A program made the position numbers and the translations under genes. A DNA stretch of 64,000 bases, taken from NCBI GenBank assembly GCA_006226595.1, contig SBGP01000099.1, positions 1 through 64,000 of the forward strand. Reading direction: 5' to 3'. Numbering within the stretch: the first letter of the stretch is position 1; every line of letters starts with the position of its first letter. This DNA comes from Deltaproteobacteria bacterium (GTDB lineage: Bacteria > Myxococcota_A > UBA796 > GCA-2862545). The notes under the pieces are model-generated. The model was not told the DNA's origin. It searched no databases and worked only from the letters and a program-made list of their open reading frames with translations. This document shows, one piece after another, positions 44,814-60,844 of this stretch.

Positions 44814-44862
44814 CGGGATCCGCGAGCAGGCGGACAGAAGTTGACCGGCTCTTCTGCGATCG

Positions 44863-44893
44863 TTGCTGGGTCCCGAATACTGAACTAATGTTC
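44863..44893 (+). promoter_or_regulatory. SOS promoter of imuAB: -35 TTGCTG, 17-bp spacer, -10 TAATGT inside a LexA-like box
   Basis: GAAC-TAAT-GTTC at 44882-44893 is a perfect LexA-type palindrome, and its flank gives CTGAAC-N4-GTTC, as I recall for Myxococcus LexA boxes. The -10 TAATGT (44886-44891) lies within the box and TTGCTG (44863-44868) is 17 bp upstream. The flanking 9-mer ATACTGAAC is shared with the dnaE2 promoter. LexA bound here would block RNA polymerase. Confidence 0.82.
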
Positions 44894-44919
44894 ATGTGGG
44901 GACAGCACAGAGGGGAACC

Positions 44920-45528
44920 ATGGCACGGCAGGGGGTCGTGTCCCTGGACGCGCTGCGTGCGCGCATCCGGGAACTCGAAGGCAATCAGGTCCGCACGACT
45001 CGGTCTCAGACCGGGGTGCCCGAGATCGACGAGCTCGTCGACGGGCTGCCCGCGCCTGGCATCGTCGAGATCTGCGGAGAGGTGGGCAGTGGTCGCACGC
45101 GTCTCGCGCTGAACCTCGCTCGCATGGCGATGGCACGTGGGGAGCCGGTGGCGTGGGTCGACTTCGAGCGTCAGCTGTACGCGCCGGGTGTTGCCGCCAT
45201 GGGCGTGCCACTGCATCGCCTGCTGGTGCTGCGTCCTCCTGCAGACCGCGCTCTGTGGGGTGCCGAGCAACTGATTCGCTCGGGGTGCTTCCCGTGGGTG
45301 ATCGCGGCCGATCCTCCGCCCTTGCGTCGCGCGGGTCAGCGCTGGCAGCGCGCCGCCGAGGCCGGTCGTTGCACGGTGATCGTGCTCAGGCAGCGTCCGC
45401 ACCGGGATCTGCCGTGCTCGGTGCGCTTCGCGGTCGCCGAGCAGCGCCTGCTCGTCGTGCGGGACAGCGGCCATCGGACCGGGCAGGGGGGACCGCTGCC
45501 GACGTGGACGTACAGTCCGTGGGCGTGA
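44920..45528 (+). CDS. imuA: ImuA, RecA-like accessory protein of SOS mutagenesis
   Basis: A 202-residue protein. I choose ATG 44920, with GAGGGG ~6 nt upstream, over GTG 44896, which would lie too close to the LexA box. The RecA/SulA-like core is visible: GVPEIDELVDGLPAPGIVEI, a P-loop-like GEVGSGRT with Arg for the usual Lys, AWVDFERQLYAPGVAAMG, and the degenerate L-loop region VIVLRQRPH. ImuA proteins assist the ImuB/DnaE2 translesion complex and need not hydrolyse ATP. imuB begins within its stop codon (GTGA). The upstream LexA box makes it SOS-inducible. Confidence 0.9.
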   Translation: MARQGVVSLDALRARIRELEGNQVRTTRSQTGVPEIDELVDGLPAPGIVEICGEVGSGRTRLALNLARMAMARGEPVAWVDFERQLYAPGVAAMGVPLHRLLVLRPPADRALWGAEQLIRSGCFPWVIAADPPPLRRAGQRWQRAAEAGRCTVIVLRQRPHRDLPCSVRFAVAEQRLLVVRDSGHRTGQGGPLPTWTYSPWA

Positions 45529-47048
45529 CCGGCGAGCGCTTCTGCGCGGTGTACCTGCCCGCATTTCGGGTCGAGCGTCTCGGCTTCGCACCCGAAGAGT
45601 GGGTTGCGGTCATCGCCGAAGAGAAGAACGCAACCCGGGTCGTGGCGGCTTCGCCGGCGGCCATGGACGAGGGCGTCGAGGTCGGCATGACGATCACCGC
45701 GGCGCGTGCCCTGTTGCCCGAGCTGCTCTCCGAGCCGCTCGACGAGGCGGGCGAAGGGGCGGACCGCGCCATGCTCGTCGAGCAGTTTCGGCGCTTCTCC
45801 CATCGCGTGGGTGCGTGGAATGCCCAGACCGTCGTGTTCGAGATGGGTGGATCGGCGCATCTGTTCGGCGGTGAAGAGGGGCTGATCGACGCCATCGCCG
45901 AGGTGGTCGCCATGCTCGGGCACCTCGCGCGCGTCGCGGTCGCCGACGATCCGGTGGCGGCGGTGGCCCTGTCCCGATGCGCGCCGAACCCGATGCTGAT
46001 CGTGCCGCCGGGACGAGGAGCCTCGGCACTCTCCGAGCTGCCCATCCAGGCTCTCGCGCCGTCACCCGCACTGCTCGAGTCGCTGGTGACCATCGGCATC
46101 GAGCGCATCGGCGACTACGCCCGTCTCGATGCGGCCTCGGTCTCGGGGCGCTACGGCCTCGAAGGCAGCACCCTGCTTCGCATCGCTCGCGGCGATGGGG
46201 TCTCGCTGGGAGGATGGGAGCAGCTCGACGAGACCGAGATCACCGAGGCCGTTGCGCTCGGCGGGCCCACAGCGACCCTCGAGCCGATCCTGTTCCTGCT
46301 CCCGGGTTTGCTCTCTCGCATGGCCGAGCGGGCTGCACAGCGCGACGAGGTCGTCGTTCGCCTGGCTCTGCGCTTTGTGCTCGAGTGCGGTCCCGTGCGG
46401 CTGTTGCGCGTGCGCGTCGGCCGTCCCACCCGCGATGTGGACGTGCTCATGCGCCTGCTCAAGGCGAGGCTCGAGAACGTACGCGTCGACGCGCCTGTCA
46501 TCGAGCTCGGTGTGATCTTCGAGGAGACCTCTGGAGACCCGGGCTGGCAGCCCGGGCTGCTCGACCGCGCCACCGAGGCCGAGGCCCTGCCCGAGCTGCT
46601 CGCACGCCTCGAGGACGCGCTCGGCGAAGAGTCGGTCGTGGGGCTCGTGCCCTGTGATGCCTGGCGGCCCGAGTCCGCCTCGCTCGTGCAGCGGCCGTTC
46701 GCACGACCTGATCCCAAGCAGGGCATGGCCCGCGGCAAGATCGATCCGGTCGAGGTGCAGGACCGGGTCGAGACCGGGTTGGCGATTCCGCGACCGACAC
46801 TCCTGCTTCCGCGTCCTCGGCCGATCGATGTCCGTACCCAGGCAGATCTGCGCACGCCGCGTCAGGCGCGCCTGGAGGGCGGCTGGCAGCTCCTGGTGAG
46901 GGTGGAGGGACCCGAGCGTCTCGAGGGCGACTGGTGGACCGACGAGGCCTATGCGCGCGAATACTGGGTCGTCGAGACGCGCAGTGGTGCGACCGCCTGG
47001 CTGTTTCGCGAGGACGCGCGCTGGTACCACCACGGGTCCTTCGACTAG
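45525..47048 (+). CDS. imuB: ImuB, catalytically inactive Y-family polymerase-like mutasome hub
   Basis: A 507-residue protein from GTG 45525 (GTGA overlap with imuA). The Y-polymerase fold is recognisable but the metal ligands are gone: the first motif reads CAVYLPAFRVE instead of xVDMDxFxAxxE, and VFEMGGSAHLFGG stands where YSxDE is expected. SELPIQALAPSPALLESLVTIGIERIGDY is the helix-hairpin-helix thumb. After the little finger, where ImuB normally has a QLDLF-type clamp motif, residues 342-346 (46548-46562) are QPGLL, a weak version. The C-terminal domain (residues ~385-507) is the usual ImuB tail ending in WYHHGSFD. It should tie DnaE2 to ImuA and the clamp. Confidence 0.92.
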   Translation: MTGERFCAVYLPAFRVERLGFAPEEWVAVIAEEKNATRVVAASPAAMDEGVEVGMTITAARALLPELLSEPLDEAGEGADRAMLVEQFRRFSHRVGAWNAQTVVFEMGGSAHLFGGEEGLIDAIAEVVAMLGHLARVAVADDPVAAVALSRCAPNPMLIVPPGRGASALSELPIQALAPSPALLESLVTIGIERIGDYARLDAASVSGRYGLEGSTLLRIARGDGVSLGGWEQLDETEITEAVALGGPTATLEPILFLLPGLLSRMAERAAQRDEVVVRLALRFVLECGPVRLLRVRVGRPTRDVDVLMRLLKARLENVRVDAPVIELGVIFEETSGDPGWQPGLLDRATEAEALPELLARLEDALGEESVVGLVPCDAWRPESASLVQRPFARPDPKQGMARGKIDPVEVQDRVETGLAIPRPTLLLPRPRPIDVRTQADLRTPRQARLEGGWQLLVRVEGPERLEGDWWTDEAYAREYWVVETRSGATAWLFREDARWYHHGSFD

Positions 47049-54066: not shown

Positions 54067-54097
54067 TTGCGTGAGACCCAATACTGAACATATGTTC
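54067..54097 (+). promoter_or_regulatory. SOS promoter of dnaE2: -35 TTGCGT, 18-bp spacer, -10 TATGTT inside a LexA-like box
   Basis: GAAC-ATAT-GTTC at 54086-54097 is a perfect palindrome, preceded by the same ATACT flank as at imuA (CTGAAC-N4-GTTC). TATGTT (54091-54096) is the likely -10, with TTGCGT (54067-54072) 18 bp upstream. The start codon ATG 54103 lies only 6 nt beyond the -10 and an in-frame TGA at 54085 rules out an earlier start, so the mRNA is probably leaderless. Confidence 0.8.
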
Positions 54098-54102
54098 CGG
54101 TC

Positions 54103-57100
54103 ATGGGTTACGCCGAGCTCACCGCACGCAGCGCCTTCTCGCTTCTCGAGGGGGCCTCCCTTCCCGAAGAGATGGCCGAAGCCTGCGCGACGCAGGGGGT
54201 CGACCACCTCGCCGTCGTCGATCGCGATGCCGTGTATGGGCTCGTGCGTGCGCATCGCGTGGCTCGCGAGCTCGGCGTTCACCTGATCTCGGGGGCGACG
54301 GTCACGCTGGTCGCGCATCCCTCGGTCGTGCTGCTCGTCGAGAATCGCCGTGGCTGGGGCAACCTGTGTCGCTTGCTCACCGAGGCTCGGTCGACCGTCG
54401 AGAAGGGGCGGGCACAGCTCGATCTACCGCGTGTGCTCGAGCACAGCGACGGGCTCTCCGCGATCCTGCGCCACGGCTGGCTTCCCGACGCGGCCCACCG
54501 CTTGAAGCAGGCATTCGGCGACCGATTGGCCGTGGGCTGGTCGCGACGTCTGCTGCCCTCCGATCGGGCACGTGAACGCAGTGCGCGCGAGCTCGCCGCG
54601 GCCCTCGACCTGCCGATCGTCGCGAGCAACGAGCCCTTGTTCCATCACCCGGACCGCAAGCGTCTCGCCGACGTGCTCACCTGCATCCGCCGCCGCACCA
54701 CGCTGCGCGGCGCGGGCCGCTGGCTGCACGCCTCGGATGCGCGGCACCTCCTGCCCGAGGCGGTGTTTCGCGAGCGCTATGCCGCCGTGCCCGAGGCCAT
54801 CGCGAACGCGCAGCGCCTGGCCGAGCGCTGCACCTTCTCCCTCGACGAGCTGCAGTACGGCTACCCGCGCGAGGTCGTGCCCGAGGGCTACACACCGATG
54901 AGCTGGCTCACCCACCTCGTCGAGGAGGGGCTGGCCTGGCGCTACCCGGATGGGCCCCCGGCCAAGGTGAGGGGAGCGGTGTGCCACGAGCTCGGGGTCA
55001 TCGAACAGCTCGATTTTCCCGCGTACTTCCTCACGGTGTACGACATCGTGCGCTTCGCGCGCTCCCGCGGCATCCTCTGCCAGGGCCGCGGCTCGGCGGC
55101 GAACTCGGCGGTGTGCTTCGCGCTGGGCATCACCAGCGTCGACCCCGCACTGCACGAGCTGCTGTTCGAGCGCTTCATCTCCGCCGAGCGCGGCGAGCCC
55201 CCGGACATCGACGTCGACTTCGAGCACGAGCGCCGCGAAGAGGTCATCCAGTACATCTACGAGCGCTACGGGCGAGACCGGGCCGCCCTCGTCAACGAGG
55301 TGATCAGCTATCGCCGTCGCTCCGCGATTCGCGACGTGGGCAAGGTCTTCGGCTTGTCGCTCGACCAGGTCGACCGGCTCGCCAAGGGGACCGACCGCTG
55401 GTCCGCCGGCAACCTCGCCCAGATCGACGACCTCGTGCAGGAGTCCGGCCTCGATCCGCGCGACGTGGGCGTTCGCCAGACGCTGCAGCTCGCCGACGAG
55501 CTGGCGGGCTTCCCGCGACACCTCTCCCAGCACGTGGGCGGGTTCACGATCACCGAGACGCCACTGATCGAGCTGGTTCCGGTCGAGGCTGCGTCGATGG
55601 AGGCGCGCACGGTCATCCAGTGGGACAAGGACGACATCGACGTCCTGCGCTTCGTGAAGGTGGACGTACTCGGCCTGGGCATGCTCACGGCCATCCGCAA
55701 GTGCTTCGAGCTCGTCTCCGAGACCTACGGGTTGCGCTACGACCTCGCCTCCGTCCCCAAGGAGGACCCGGCGGTCTACGACATGTTCTGCCGGGCCGAC
55801 ACGGTGGGCGTGTTCCAGATCGAGAGTCGCGCCCAGATGTCGATGCTGCCGCGCTTGCGACCGCGGTGCTTCTACGATCTCGTCATCGAGGTCGCCATCG
55901 TCCGCCCGGGGCCGATCCAGGGCGGCATGGTCCATCCGTTCCTGCGTCGTCGAAACGGCGAGGAGCCGGTCGTGTACCCGCACCCCGACGTCGAGCCCAT
56001 CCTCGCGCGCACCATGGGAGTGCCCCTGTTCCAGGAGCAGGTCATGGCGATGGCCGTGGCGGTGGGCGGCTTCTCGCCGGGCGAGGCCGACGCACTGCGC
56101 CGAGCCATGGGCGCGTGGCGCAAGACCGGCGATCTGGGGCCCATCGGGCGACGACTGGTGGACCGCATGATCGCGCGCGGCATCGCCCCGGACTACGCCG
56201 AGCAGATCTTCGAGCAGATCAAGGGATTCGGTGAGTATGGCTTCCCCGAGTCCCACTCCGCGAGCTTCGCGCTGCTCGTGTACGTGTCGGGGTGGCTGAA
56301 GTGCCACTGGCCCGAGGCCTTCGCCGCGGCGCTCATCAACAGCCAGCCGATGGGCTTCTACTCGCCACGCAGCCTGGTTGGCGACGCCCAACGCCATCAC
56401 GTCGAGGTGCGTCCGGTGTGTGTGGCGCGCAGCGCGTGGGACTGCACCCTCGAGTGCGACGGGGTGGCTCTGAAGACCGCAGCGGGTCCCCCCCATCTCG
56501 AGCCGCGACCCGAGCGTGCCGCGATGCGACTCGGGCTGCGCCTCGTGCGTGGCTTTGGCGACGCCGACGGAGAGGCGGTGCTGCAGGCGCGCGAGGAGCG
56601 CCCCTTTCGGGATCTCGCCGACTTCGCGGGACGCACCCTCCTCGACCGGGGAAAGCTCCAGGCGCTCGCCGACGCCGATGCGTTCGCATGTTTCGGGGTG
56701 AGTCGCCGTGAGGCCGCATGGATCCTCCAGGGCTTGTGGACGGACGCTCCGCTGTTCGCTGGGCAGTACCGTGTCGAGCCGGAGACCCGGCTGCCTCGCG
56801 AGGACCGACTCGCGGCGATTCGCGCCGACTACCGCGCCGTGGGCCTGTCCGTGGACAAGCATCCGATCGACGTGTTCCGAGGCGCGCTCGATGCGCGTGG
56901 CGTACGGCTCTCCGCCGAGCTCCAGGCCGTCACCCATGGAACGCGGGTGCGCGTGGCCGGGCTGGTTGCGAACCGGCAGCGGCCTGGCACCGCGAACGGC
57001 GTGGTGTTCATGACCCTCGAGGACGAGACCGGCATGATCAACCTGGTCGTGTGGCCCAAGGTGTGGGACCGCTACCGGCGCATCGCGCGTCGGGCCGCGG

Positions 57101-57219
57101 TGATCGGGGTGGATGGCACGCTTCAGCGCGATGGCGACGCGGTGAGCGTGCTCGTGAGTGCCTTCTGGTTGCTCCAGGCCGATCCCGTGGTGTCGGCTCG
57201 GTCCCGGGATTTTCGGTGA
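54103..57219 (+). CDS. dnaE2: Error-prone replicative-type DNA polymerase DnaE2 (ImuC)
   Basis: A 1038-residue C-family polymerase alpha subunit that extends past lesions with ImuA/ImuB. The N-terminal PHP domain begins YAELTARSAFSLLEGAS; the first PHP histidine is Arg, as expected for a non-editing domain. The palm has PPDIDVDFEHERREE with catalytic D370 and D372, and LCQGRGSAANSAVCFALGIT before it. Fingers show VVYPHPDVEPILARTMGVPLFQEQVM and IKGFGEYGFPESHSASFAL. Near the C terminus an OB fold reads VRVAGLVANRQRPGTANGVVFMTLEDE. The product lacks the tau-binding tail of DnaE1 and its length is normal for DnaE2. A LexA-like box overlaps the promoter; no clamp motif is obvious. Confidence 0.97.
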   Translation: MGYAELTARSAFSLLEGASLPEEMAEACATQGVDHLAVVDRDAVYGLVRAHRVARELGVHLISGATVTLVAHPSVVLLVENRRGWGNLCRLLTEARSTVEKGRAQLDLPRVLEHSDGLSAILRHGWLPDAAHRLKQAFGDRLAVGWSRRLLPSDRARERSARELAAALDLPIVASNEPLFHHPDRKRLADVLTCIRRRTTLRGAGRWLHASDARHLLPEAVFRERYAAVPEAIANAQRLAERCTFSLDELQYGYPREVVPEGYTPMSWLTHLVEEGLAWRYPDGPPAKVRGAVCHELGVIEQLDFPAYFLTVYDIVRFARSRGILCQGRGSAANSAVCFALGITSVDPALHELLFERFISAERGEPPDIDVDFEHERREEVIQYIYERYGRDRAALVNEVISYRRRSAIRDVGKVFGLSLDQVDRLAKGTDRWSAGNLAQIDDLVQESGLDPRDVGVRQTLQLADELAGFPRHLSQHVGGFTITETPLIELVPVEAASMEARTVIQWDKDDIDVLRFVKVDVLGLGMLTAIRKCFELVSETYGLRYDLASVPKEDPAVYDMFCRADTVGVFQIESRAQMSMLPRLRPRCFYDLVIEVAIVRPGPIQGGMVHPFLRRRNGEEPVVYPHPDVEPILARTMGVPLFQEQVMAMAVAVGGFSPGEADALRRAMGAWRKTGDLGPIGRRLVDRMIARGIAPDYAEQIFEQIKGFGEYGFPESHSASFALLVYVSGWLKCHWPEAFAAALINSQPMGFYSPRSLVGDAQRHHVEVRPVCVARSAWDCTLECDGVALKTAAGPPHLEPRPERAAMRLGLRLVRGFGDADGEAVLQAREERPFRDLADFAGRTLLDRGKLQALADADAFACFGVSRREAAWILQGLWTDAPLFAGQYRVEPETRLPREDRLAAIRADYRAVGLSVDKHPIDVFRGALDARGVRLSAELQAVTHGTRVRVAGLVANRQRPGTANGVVFMTLEDETGMINLVVWPKVWDRYRRIARRAAVIGVDGTLQRDGDAVSVLVSAFWLLQADPVVSARSRDFR

Positions 57220-58383: not shown

Positions 58384-59454
58384 ATGCGGAGGTTCCTGCT
58401 CGGTCTTGCGCTGAGCGCCACGGCTGCCTGGGGCGCGACAGCGACGGAGACCTGGGCGTCGTTGCGTGCGGGCGGCGAGGCTCGGGTTCCCTTGTCCGTG
58501 GAGCAGCGTGAGCAGCTCCTCGCGTGCGCGGACCCCGGCCCGGTGGGGTTGGCTCGGATCGTGCGCCAGGACGTGCGCATCGACTGTCCGATGACCGTGT
58601 GGATGGGGTGGTTCGACGAGTATGCGGCGTATCCGCACGTCAGCGAGGCGCTCTCCGATGCTGGGAGCGCGCGGGGCGAGCTGCGACGTGCGGCCGTCGC
58701 CTGGCTTCGCGGGGACATGGAACCCATGGCCACGGTCACCGAGCACCCCGAGCTTCGTCGGGAAGAGCGGGACGCGCTCCTGGCCTGGTGGCTCGACCAG
58801 CGGGCGCGCCCCGTGCTCCATCCCCGAACGGCCGAGACCCTGGCGGTGCTTGCGTTCGAGGAGTCCGCGGACCTGAGCCACCCCACGTTGCTCTGGCGTG
58901 CCGGTGCCCGTGCCGCGTGGGCGCCCGTTCTCGAGCGCGAGCTCAATCGACCGGTACCGTGCCTGGGGGACTGCTCGGCCCGGCTGGACGCCGTTCTGCG
59001 CGACCTGGAGCCCTCACCGCCGGCAGACGTCCCGGAGCCGCTCCGGGCGGTTCTGGAGCCGACAGAGGCCGCGAGAGCCGTGGACCGCTGGCAGCATGCT
59101 CTGCGGTGGCTGGAGGGCGACCCTCGACGGCGACTCGCGAGGATCGATGCCGCTCACGTCCTCACGCAGCACGCGTCCCCGGCGCTGCAGTCGTGGTTCG
59201 TCGCCAGTGCCGCCGAACACCTCGGGTTGTCTCCGACCGTGCAACGCGACGCCGAGGGTGTTCAGGTGACCTGGCAGGGGGGACAGGCCCGGTTCGCGGC
59301 GTGTGTCGGCAGGGGAAGCGTCACCGCGGCCGATCTGGGGGCTCTCGTTGGGCGCGAGCAGGCGGAGTCGCCCACCGGAGAGGCCACTGCCGACGTGGCG
59401 GCTCGCCTGCTCCGCAGCCTGTCCGATCCTCCGTCGCCGTGTGCGAGGCCGTAA
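58384..59454 (+). CDS. Exported hypothetical protein, helical-repeat-like
   Basis: A 356-residue protein with a signal peptide (MRRFLLGLALSATAAWGATA). The mature part is Ala/Leu/Arg-rich and helical, with spaced Trp residues (LLAWWLDQ, WVALA-like turns, ALRWLEGDPRR), reminiscent of HEAT-type helical repeats but not clearly one. Cysteines are few (ACADP, DCPMT, CLGDC), allowing one or two disulfides. A GAGG lies just before ATG 58384. Family unknown. A perfect 17-bp palindrome begins two bases after its TAA stop. Confidence 0.7.
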   Translation: MRRFLLGLALSATAAWGATATETWASLRAGGEARVPLSVEQREQLLACADPGPVGLARIVRQDVRIDCPMTVWMGWFDEYAAYPHVSEALSDAGSARGELRRAAVAWLRGDMEPMATVTEHPELRREERDALLAWWLDQRARPVLHPRTAETLAVLAFEESADLSHPTLLWRAGARAAWAPVLERELNRPVPCLGDCSARLDAVLRDLEPSPPADVPEPLRAVLEPTEAARAVDRWQHALRWLEGDPRRRLARIDAAHVLTQHASPALQSWFVASAAEHLGLSPTVQRDAEGVQVTWQGGQARFAACVGRGSVTAADLGALVGREQAESPTGEATADVAARLLRSLSDPPSPCARP

Positions 59455-59455
59455 G

Positions 59456-59472
59456 CGGACATATTATGTCCG
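59456..59472. promoter_or_regulatory. Perfect palindrome CGGACATATTATGTCCG
   Basis: Eight-base arms with a central T, 18 bp upstream of the -35 of the SOS-like promoter of the 59538 gene. No T-tract follows, so it is a poor terminator. Its position suits an activator or repressor site for the downstream promoter. Confidence 0.5.
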
Positions 59473-59489: not shown

Positions 59490-59521
59490 TTGTCAGTGGA
59501 GCGGGTGTTCAGTATGTTCAG
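59490..59521 (+). promoter_or_regulatory. SOS-like promoter: TTGTCA, 17 bp, TATGTT overlapping GTTCAG repeats
   Basis: -35 TTGTCA (59490-59495), 17-bp spacer, -10 TATGTT (59513-59518). GTTCAG occurs at 59507-59512 and 59516-59521, three bases apart. The first copy completes GAGC-N4-GTTC (59499-59510), one mismatch from the LexA palindrome. Reading the other strand gives ATACTGAAC, the 9-mer shared with the imuA and dnaE2 promoters. LexA control is likely but weaker-supported than for those two. Confidence 0.65.
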
Positions 59522-59537
59522 GGTGTAGGAGGAAGCC

Positions 59538-59978
59538 ATGAACGCCCCTCGCCTCGACCGATACACCGCTGCGACCGAAGACCTCACGAACCTGCCCCCG
59601 ATCTGGCAGGAGACGACCGACGAGGTCTTTGTGGTCACGCATCCGGGGGAGTTCGGCGGTGTGCACTACGGTCTGGGCGACGTGCTCGTGTGCCGTGGGG
59701 ACGCGGTCGACGACGAGCCGGTGGTGCTCATGGCACGGGGACACGGACGGCCGCGCCTGGGGTGGGTTCGCGGCGACGAGCTGTACGGCGAGGTGGGGGA
59801 ACCTTGCAGTGTGGCCCGTTGGCGCGCCGCGGGGCGCATCGTGGCGGTGATGCGGGCCGACGCTCGCAGCCTCGCCCTGGTGCGTCCCGCACCGGCCCCG
59901 ATGGTCCGTCTTCCCGGCGTGCCCGCCGCGCGTCCCATGGCATCGGCGCAGCTGTCGCTGTTCTCGCAGGCTGCGTAG
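59538..59978 (+). CDS. Small SOS-associated protein with LexA/UmuD-like beta core and C-terminal clamp-binding motif QLSLF
   Basis: A 146-residue protein (ATG 59538, GGAGG at 59529-59533). The last 13 residues contain QLSLF, a consensus beta-sliding-clamp binding motif, after a ~25-residue Pro/Ala linker (PAPAPMVRLPGVPAARP). Residues ~35-105 resemble an S24 (LexA/UmuD C-terminal) beta fold: GLGDVLVCRGD, EPVVLMARGHGRPRLGWVRG and the closing RAAGRIVAVMR. I see neither the GxSM nucleophile nor a clear catalytic Lys, so self-cleavage is unlikely. SOS-like promoter, and imuAB and dnaE2 lie within 15 kb with related operators. I infer a mutasome accessory that recruits factors to the clamp. The S24 resemblance is tentative; the motif and gene are sure. 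Confidence 0.8.
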   Translation: MNAPRLDRYTAATEDLTNLPPIWQETTDEVFVVTHPGEFGGVHYGLGDVLVCRGDAVDDEPVVLMARGHGRPRLGWVRGDELYGEVGEPCSVARWRAAGRIVAVMRADARSLALVRPAPAPMVRLPGVPAARPMASAQLSLFSQAA

Positions 59979-60039: not shown

Positions 60040-60822
60040 CTAGCCCAGCGCCTCGCGCATGGTCGCCACCCGGCGCACATCCACGGGCAGCGTGAGATTG
60101 GCTTCCTCGTGGAGCCAGGTCCCGACGATCGCGGCATCCACGGGCGGAACGCGATCCGGCGTCACGCCCGAACCTGCCCAGACCGGCGCCTGGGGGAGGA
60201 CCGCACGGATGCGAGCGATACGCTCCGGGTCCAGCGGCTGTCCGGTCCCGCTACCGCTGACGATCAGCGCGTCGGCGCCGCCACGGTGCCAGGTGTCGCG
60301 CGCCACGTCCTCCAGCTTGGGGCTTCCGAGCGGAACGGCGTGCTTTACGAGCACGTCGGCAGCGATGCGCGCGGAGCTCTCGAGGCGACGGCGGTCGAGG
60401 AGCAACTCACGGGCTTCCCCGGTGATCATGCCCTGGTCGGTGACCATGACCCCGGTGAGCACGTTCACCCGCACGAAGCTCGCCTCGGTGGCCGTGGCGA
60501 TCGCCATCGCGGAGCGCGCGTCGTTGCGCAGCACGTTGATGCCGAGCGGCAGATCTGGCGCCTGCTCGCGGATCACCAGCGCTGCCCGCGTCAGGGCCGC
60601 GACGGTGTAGGGCTCCACGGCGCCGGCGGTGAATGGAGCGTCGCCGAGGTTCTCGACGATGATGGCATCGGCGCCTCCCTCTGCGAGCGCACGGGCATCG
60701 GCGGCGGCGCGTGCCAGGACCGCGGCGAGGCCTGGAGATGCGGTGGGACCGCCAGGCAGGGGGAGAAGGTGCACCATGCCGATGAGGGCAGGGCGGTCGG
60801 TCGTGCGGGAGAAGGGGGTCAT
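60040..60822 (-). CDS. BtpA/SgcQ-family TIM-barrel protein
   Basis: A 260-residue protein. ATG 60822 (MTPFSRTTDRPAL) has GAGG 6 nt upstream; ATG 60834 would add MRRR. BtpA-family signatures: ALIGMVHLLPLPGGP, ADAIIVENLGDAPF, PLGINVLRND, ASFVRVNVLTGVMVTDQG, and ADALIVSGSGTGQP for the phosphate-binding end of the barrel. The family includes BtpA, needed for photosystem I stability in cyanobacteria, and sugar-pathway members such as SgcQ; the enzymatic activity is not established. The next gene on the strand, an antiporter, ends 22 nt upstream. No photosynthesis genes here. Confidence 0.93.
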   Translation of the reverse strand: MTPFSRTTDRPALIGMVHLLPLPGGPTASPGLAAVLARAAADARALAEGGADAIIVENLGDAPFTAGAVEPYTVAALTRAALVIREQAPDLPLGINVLRNDARSAMAIATATEASFVRVNVLTGVMVTDQGMITGEARELLLDRRRLESSARIAADVLVKHAVPLGSPKLEDVARDTWHRGGADALIVSGSGTGQPLDPERIARIRAVLPQAPVWAGSGVTPDRVPPVDAAIVGTWLHEEANLTLPVDVRRVATMREALG

Positions 60823-60844
60823 GCGCCGCCTCATACCGCGGCAA

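Follow-up and report, generated by a model that had tools for sequence, protein, structure and literature searches.

In the DnaE2 mutasome, the organising step is considered to be clamp recruitment by ImuB. ImuB is a damage-induced, inactive Y-family scaffold with a QLxLF/W motif, and in mycobacteria exchange of QLPLWG for AAAAGG phenocopies the imuB deletion, showing that the motif is essential for mutasome function (PMC10421592). Y-family and DnaE2 complexes are also described to have small accessory subunits; those named in the relevant part of a published catalogue include UmuD, YqjX/YolD variants, stand-alone ImuB-C and SRAP-like subunits, and no subunit providing a clamp tether in trans is among those named there (PMC12926913). 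On the regulatory side, the SOS box of M. xanthus is CTRHAMRYBYGTTCAGS (PMC9705874), while the damage activator DriD of Caulobacter, for which the consensus ATACGAC-N7-GTCGTAT was reported (PMC12340889), and PafBC of mycobacteria represent WYL-WCX regulators with DNA-repair targets.

In this study, we analyzed gene X, encoding a previously unnamed small protein of one bacterial order, in a stretch of 64,000 nucleotides (the window) and in related genomes. The gene and its parts are as follows.

59538 to 59978, plus strand: gene X, 146 amino acids, with an N-domain (about residues 28-107), a linker and a C-terminal clamp motif
59619 to 59858, plus strand: conserved N-domain of X (residues 28-107), from an alignment of 48 members and an hhalign comparison with the LexA C-terminal domain
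59949 to 59963, plus strand: predicted clamp-binding motif QLSLF (residues 138-142), from the sequence and its conservation in homologues

The first-pass annotation had described a 146-residue product ending in QLSLF, and both the open reading frame and the motif position were confirmed. The C-terminal end reads ...ASAQLSLFSQAA, in which QLSLF is followed by four residues, and an AGGAGG Shine-Dalgarno sequence is located at 59527. X shares 61% identity with its closest relative; dN/dS between the two is 0.30 over the full length, falling to 0.18 for the N-domain and rising to 0.44 for linker and tail. From these values it follows that the open reading frame is a genuine gene on which purifying selection acts, with a loosely constrained linker. 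Upstream lies a 356-aa open reading frame (58384-59454, plus strand) which is poorly conserved (35% in the closest relative) and has no match in Pfam. In most of the order, a BtpA-family gene (in the window at 60040-60834, minus strand) is the constant neighbor of X. The two genes are convergent in the window's family, and several sister families have btpA downstream of X on the same strand; btpA is not known to be functionally linked to X.

X carries a QL[SD]LF-type peptide (QLSLF) in an accessible place, through which it would bind the clamp. Among 45 homologues with a complete C-terminus, 38 have a clamp-type motif, always near the extreme C-terminus: the strict form Q[LVIM]x[LF][FW] occurs in 26 and a relaxed or six-residue form (QLSLL, QVPLPF and similar) in 12 more. 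The chance level, obtained by shuffling the last 60 residues, averages 0.04 for strict and 0.28 for strict or relaxed motifs, the highest counts in any shuffle being 1 and 2, respectively. The motif is kept even though the linker preceding it is hypervariable in length and sequence. Seven of the 45 (e.g. in genomes G007, G009 and G018) lack even a relaxed motif, one of them showing QVTLAC.

The genes of the known mutasome subunits lie upstream of X on the same strand and, as had been noted, within 15 kb of it.

44920 to 45528, plus strand: imuA, RecA-like mutasome subunit, from its translation and its position before imuB
about 45504 to 47048, plus strand: imuB, inactive Y-family protein with the degenerate clamp motif QPGLLD in place of QLDLF, from a PF00817 match and the aligned motif column
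54103 to 57219, plus strand: dnaE2, error-prone C-family polymerase, from PF07733 and PF17657

In related genomes dnaE2 is found at 59-83% identity, and DnaE1 copies separate at about 35%. ImuA was examined for a clamp motif and has none; the only clamp-like motif of DnaE2 is QMSML, in a stretch which we take to be part of the conserved polymerase core. In the aligned motif column of ImuB, none of 30 sequences of this order has a strict motif, the residues being QPGLLD, QPGLTD, QTDLLD and similar, versus 15 of 28 sequences from outside the order in the same phylum, which show QLDLF, QLDFF, QLRLF, QIRLF, QLGIF or QLALW (Fisher P about 1e-6, uncorrected for phylogeny). Since the motif is essential in mycobacteria, its order-wide loss needs an explanation, and X offers one. 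The pattern has exceptions. Three ImuB members of family f2 retain QxxLF. Two further cases speak against the explanation by X: in G007, G009 and G018 both X and ImuB are without a clamp motif, and in family f7 of the same class the ImuB motif is lost, yet X was not detected. As a single case, ImuB of a fairly complete genome (94%) of the window's family in which X was not detected (G010:C5) has QASLY where its relatives have QPGLxD. Family f2 also differs in gene structure: in several genomes (for example G054:C78, G051:C22, G026:C73 and G045:C1), the ImuB and DnaE2 matches fall within one long open frame of about 1590-1755 aa, which suggests a natural ImuB-DnaE2 fusion protein.

Homologues of X were found in 30 of 58 relatives from the order by single-sequence search and in 48 by profile search. 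A search of 379 genomes of the phylum with the N-domain profile detected X in 52 of 63 order members and in none of the 8 other members of the class; among the remaining 308 genomes just four marginal matches appeared (E 4e-5 to 7e-4). A scan of genome contigs added one further record only, and searches of plasmid and phage collections returned no match, so that nothing points to a mobile gene. ImuB was detected in 52 of the 58 relatives, a DnaE-type polymerase in all 58 and a high-identity DnaE2 in most. The distribution thus contradicts a restriction of X homologues to genomes without ImuB and DnaE2, which the first-pass annotation had named as an outcome that would speak against its proposal. 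Inside the order co-occurrence is uninformative, because nearly all genomes carry both ImuB and DnaE2.

In the window X is in no operon with imuB or dnaE2. The gene order dnaE2, a few genes, X and btpA recurs in the window's family, X and btpA remain neighbors in sister families, and in G003, G009 and G013 imuB, dnaE2 and X are located on one contig. At loci L046 and L047 (G009 and G018), imuB, btpA and X follow each other closely in a row on one strand; X at these loci has no clamp motif.

The 48 aligned members share the N-domain pattern F-V...G...GD-lv...vvl.prG.GrP.lG...GEpC.p.RW...G.v.av.R. Scans of X and 22 members against Pfam and NCBIfam gave nothing at the N-domain, including no S24 match, and the family profile had no match in the PDB by hmmsearch. 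The X core had been described as weakly similar to LexA/UmuD (S24). A hhalign comparison of the N-domain with LexA of the order is consistent with this, as 66 columns, spanning the GD-LV strand through the C-terminal S24 strand, align in collinear order. The score of 21.7 exceeds that of every one of 400 column shuffles (at most 18.5), but P is only 0.005. AlphaFold models of two X-family sequences are poor (pLDDT 47 and 52). A Foldseek search with the first of them ranked several LexA C-domains among its best matches (E about 1), and because of the low model confidence we treat these fold results as a hint only. In the 48-member alignment a conserved Ser-Lys dyad was sought and is absent. From profile similarity the N-domain would be at best a distant, catalytically dead S24 relative, and a working S24 protease in X is unlikely. 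X could be a UmuD-like, self-cleaving S24 regulator of a polymerase, as the collinear LexA similarity and the LexA structures among the top Foldseek matches might suggest; given the absence of both the dyad and a Pfam S24 match, we regard this as highly improbable. X resembles UmuD/UmuD', the S24 accessory subunit of Pol V, in being a small protein with a putative, distantly LexA-like domain, but differs in lacking the catalytic dyad and the Pfam S24 match and in carrying its own clamp peptide at the C-terminus. As a small accessory subunit, X would be comparable to YqjX/YolD, stand-alone ImuB-C and SRAP-like subunits; in Pfam and NCBIfam scans X has no similarity to any of them.

The length of X varies within the order, from 106-190 aa in the window's family to mostly 220-280 aa or 340-470 aa in other families. 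Three long relatives match PF00817 (impB/mucB/samB, Y-family) above the Pfam cut-off, and in these the match lies between the N-domain and the C-terminus; the Y-family domain of the longer relatives is degenerate. Forms of 220-280 aa have no recognizable core, and Pfam detects no PF00817 in X itself. Based on the position of the match in the long relatives, the ancestor of the family appears to have been a longer protein consisting of an N-domain, an inactive Y-family core and a clamp motif. This long form survives in sister families, and the core seems to have been lost in the window's family, the direction of change being deduced from the same comparison. The long forms, in which a putative LexA-like domain is fused ahead of a Y-family domain, recall UmuD plus UmuC, and they are like ImuB in that a degenerate Y-family core is followed by a clamp motif. 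Unlike ImuB, X of the window has no Y-family core; moreover, both proteins coexist in the same genomes and only X has a strict motif.

The stepwise reduction from 370-450 aa (some with PF00817) over coreless forms of 220-280 aa to 106-190 aa in the window's family could also mean that the X proteins are what remains of another inactive Y-family (UmuDC-like) fusion in the course of being lost and that the copy in the window has little function of its own, and the seven members without a motif fit such a decay. We consider this improbable in view of the purifying selection on the N-domain (dN/dS 0.18), the retention of X in 52 of 63 genomes and the preservation of the motif and of two operators across families.

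The regulatory elements of X, with the LexA boxes of imuA-imuB and dnaE2, are as follows.

59490 to 59495, plus strand: -35 element TTGTCA of X, from the sequence, with a 17-bp spacer to TATGTT
59513 to 59518, plus strand: -10 element TATGTT of X, from the sequence
59507 to 59521, plus strand: GTTCAGTATGTTCAG, predicted LexA half-sites as a direct repeat over the -10, from the SOS box of the clade and the conserved half-site GTTCAGTA
44880 to 44895, no strand assigned: LexA box CTGAACTAATGTTCAT of imuA-imuB, full CTGAAC-N4-GTTC
54084 to 54099, no strand assigned: LexA box CTGAACATATGTTCCG of dnaE2, full CTGAAC-N4-GTTC

TTGTCA and TATGTT, 17 bp apart, form a good predicted sigma-70 promoter. 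The SOS box of the clade, CTGAAC-N4-GTTCAG, is found before imuA, dnaE2, cinA-recA and an AlkB-like gene (the latter two identified from their translations), with a related form before lexA, and it resembles the box of M. xanthus. Upstream of X homologues the right half-site GTTCAGTA is exact in 17 of 30 versus about 0.1 expected, and the left half is degenerate. Therefore, the claim of an SOS promoter related to the imuA and dnaE2 operators holds for the conserved right half only; X has this half and direct GTTC repeats in place of a full box, which makes the LexA site imperfect, and LexA may nevertheless bind there. The GTTCAG repeats reported over the -10 are present at 59507 and 59516, of which just the second overlaps it. 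Direct repeats (GTTC-N4-GTTC, GTTC-N5-GTTC) replace the palindromic LexA box in X promoters such as L002, L007, L010 and L026. Two further readings were rejected. GTTCAG is not enriched across the window (23 seen versus 23.2 expected), and TTGTCAGTGG was not accepted as a RecA-NDp (PafBC-type) promoter because its spacing to the -10 differs from that of RecA-NDp and other homologues lack it.

A second operator, overlooked in the first-pass annotation, has the form GGACA-N5-TGTCC and occurs in the window before X and, as a near-match, before imuA.

59456 to 59472, no strand assigned: palindrome CGGACATATTATGTCCG, predicted operator of a WYL/DriD-type activator (core GAC-N7-GTC), conserved upstream of X homologues
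44832 to 44846, no strand assigned: near-match palindrome GGACAGAAGTTGACC upstream of imuA, 1 mismatch

Upstream of X homologues the palindrome is exact in 13 of 30 (about 0.2 expected) and present with at most 2 mismatches in 27 of 30 (about 1.4 expected). About half of the imuA loci have it as well, placed 32-60 bp before the LexA box, and the imuA copy of the close relative G001 is exact (GGACAGATTCTGTCC). Within the window's family, the palindrome lies 56-57 bp from the predicted -10 in each of the 11 X promoters measured; among the 7 imuA promoters in which both elements were found, this spacing is 54-56 bp in 5. The refined pattern occurs zero to six times per genome, and its reversed control had no match in any genome.

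GAC-N7-GTC is also the core of the DriD consensus (PMC12340889). A homologue of the WYL-WCX regulator is encoded in 57 of 58 genomes, in this genome at G000:C18:136439, and of 30 promoters of the regulator gene examined, 27 contain the palindrome with at most 2 mismatches, the left half often being GnCCA in place of GGACA. X thus combines an upstream GAC-N7-GTC palindrome with a WYL-WCX regulator in the genome, and this regulator probably binds the palindrome. Other genes behind the palindrome include cinA-recA (cinA PF02464), recC (PF04257), RadA, an SbcD-like phosphoesterase, a DEAD-box helicase which we read as RecQ, and the WYL-WCX regulator; DNA-repair genes and the regulator were seen at loci L244, L245, L248, L250, L252, L254, L261, L267, L271 and L118. 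Apparently, a DriD-like damage regulon extends across the whole order. It shares with DriD and PafBC the regulator type and the DNA-repair targets and with DriD the operator core, but its operator has the flanks GCGGACA...TGTCCGC and its targets, including imuA-imuB and X, are mostly others. By its shared LexA-type and palindrome elements, the X promoter is predicted to place the gene in one double damage regulon with the mutasome operon.

Because X has the clamp hook lost by ImuB and the same damage-control sites, it probably ties the mutasome to the clamp. The first-pass annotation had proposed a dedicated clamp adaptor for ImuB and DnaE2, which is partly supported; in its favor are the motif kept in X and lost in ImuB, the promoter layout, the synteny with dnaE2 and the Y-family relatives, while two of its details are to be amended: the SOS box is a half-site beside which stands an operator of WYL/DriD type, and the S24 similarity is at best that of a distant, catalytically dead relative. 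X might instead be a damage-induced, clamp-binding regulator apart from the mutasome, displacing Pol III or other clients as a checkpoint or polymerase-switch factor. The small size of X and its one clamp peptide, borne on a flexible tail, would suit this role, and the shared operator also heads non-mutasome repair genes; however, such a function explains neither why ImuB of this order lost its motif, nor the Y-family domain of the longer relatives, nor the match in promoter layout with imuA-imuB, and we regard it as rather unlikely.

We therefore favor, as the reasonably probable reading, X as a dedicated clamp adaptor which supplies the tether in trans to the ImuA-ImuB-DnaE2 mutasome. The QLSLF peptide on its flexible linker would dock in the clamp cleft and the N-domain, probably a dead UmuD/LexA-like fold, would hold the ImuB/DnaE2 assembly, so that the tether stands in for the motif lost from ImuB in this order. 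Like imuA-imuB, X would be transcribed under the control of both LexA and a DriD-like WYL activator. The contact with ImuB/DnaE2 and the role in mutagenesis are predictions from comparative sequence data. With about even confidence, this can be extended to a four-component mutasome ImuA-ImuB-DnaE2-X in the whole order, in which the clamp tether moved from ImuB to X, and X arose from a UmuD-like/inactive-polymerase fusion and is driven by joint LexA and DriD-like WYL control. If true, the clamp-recruitment step would be modular and separately regulable, the set of known mutasome subunits would be extended, and the mutasome would answer to a WYL/DriD-type damage activator in addition to LexA.
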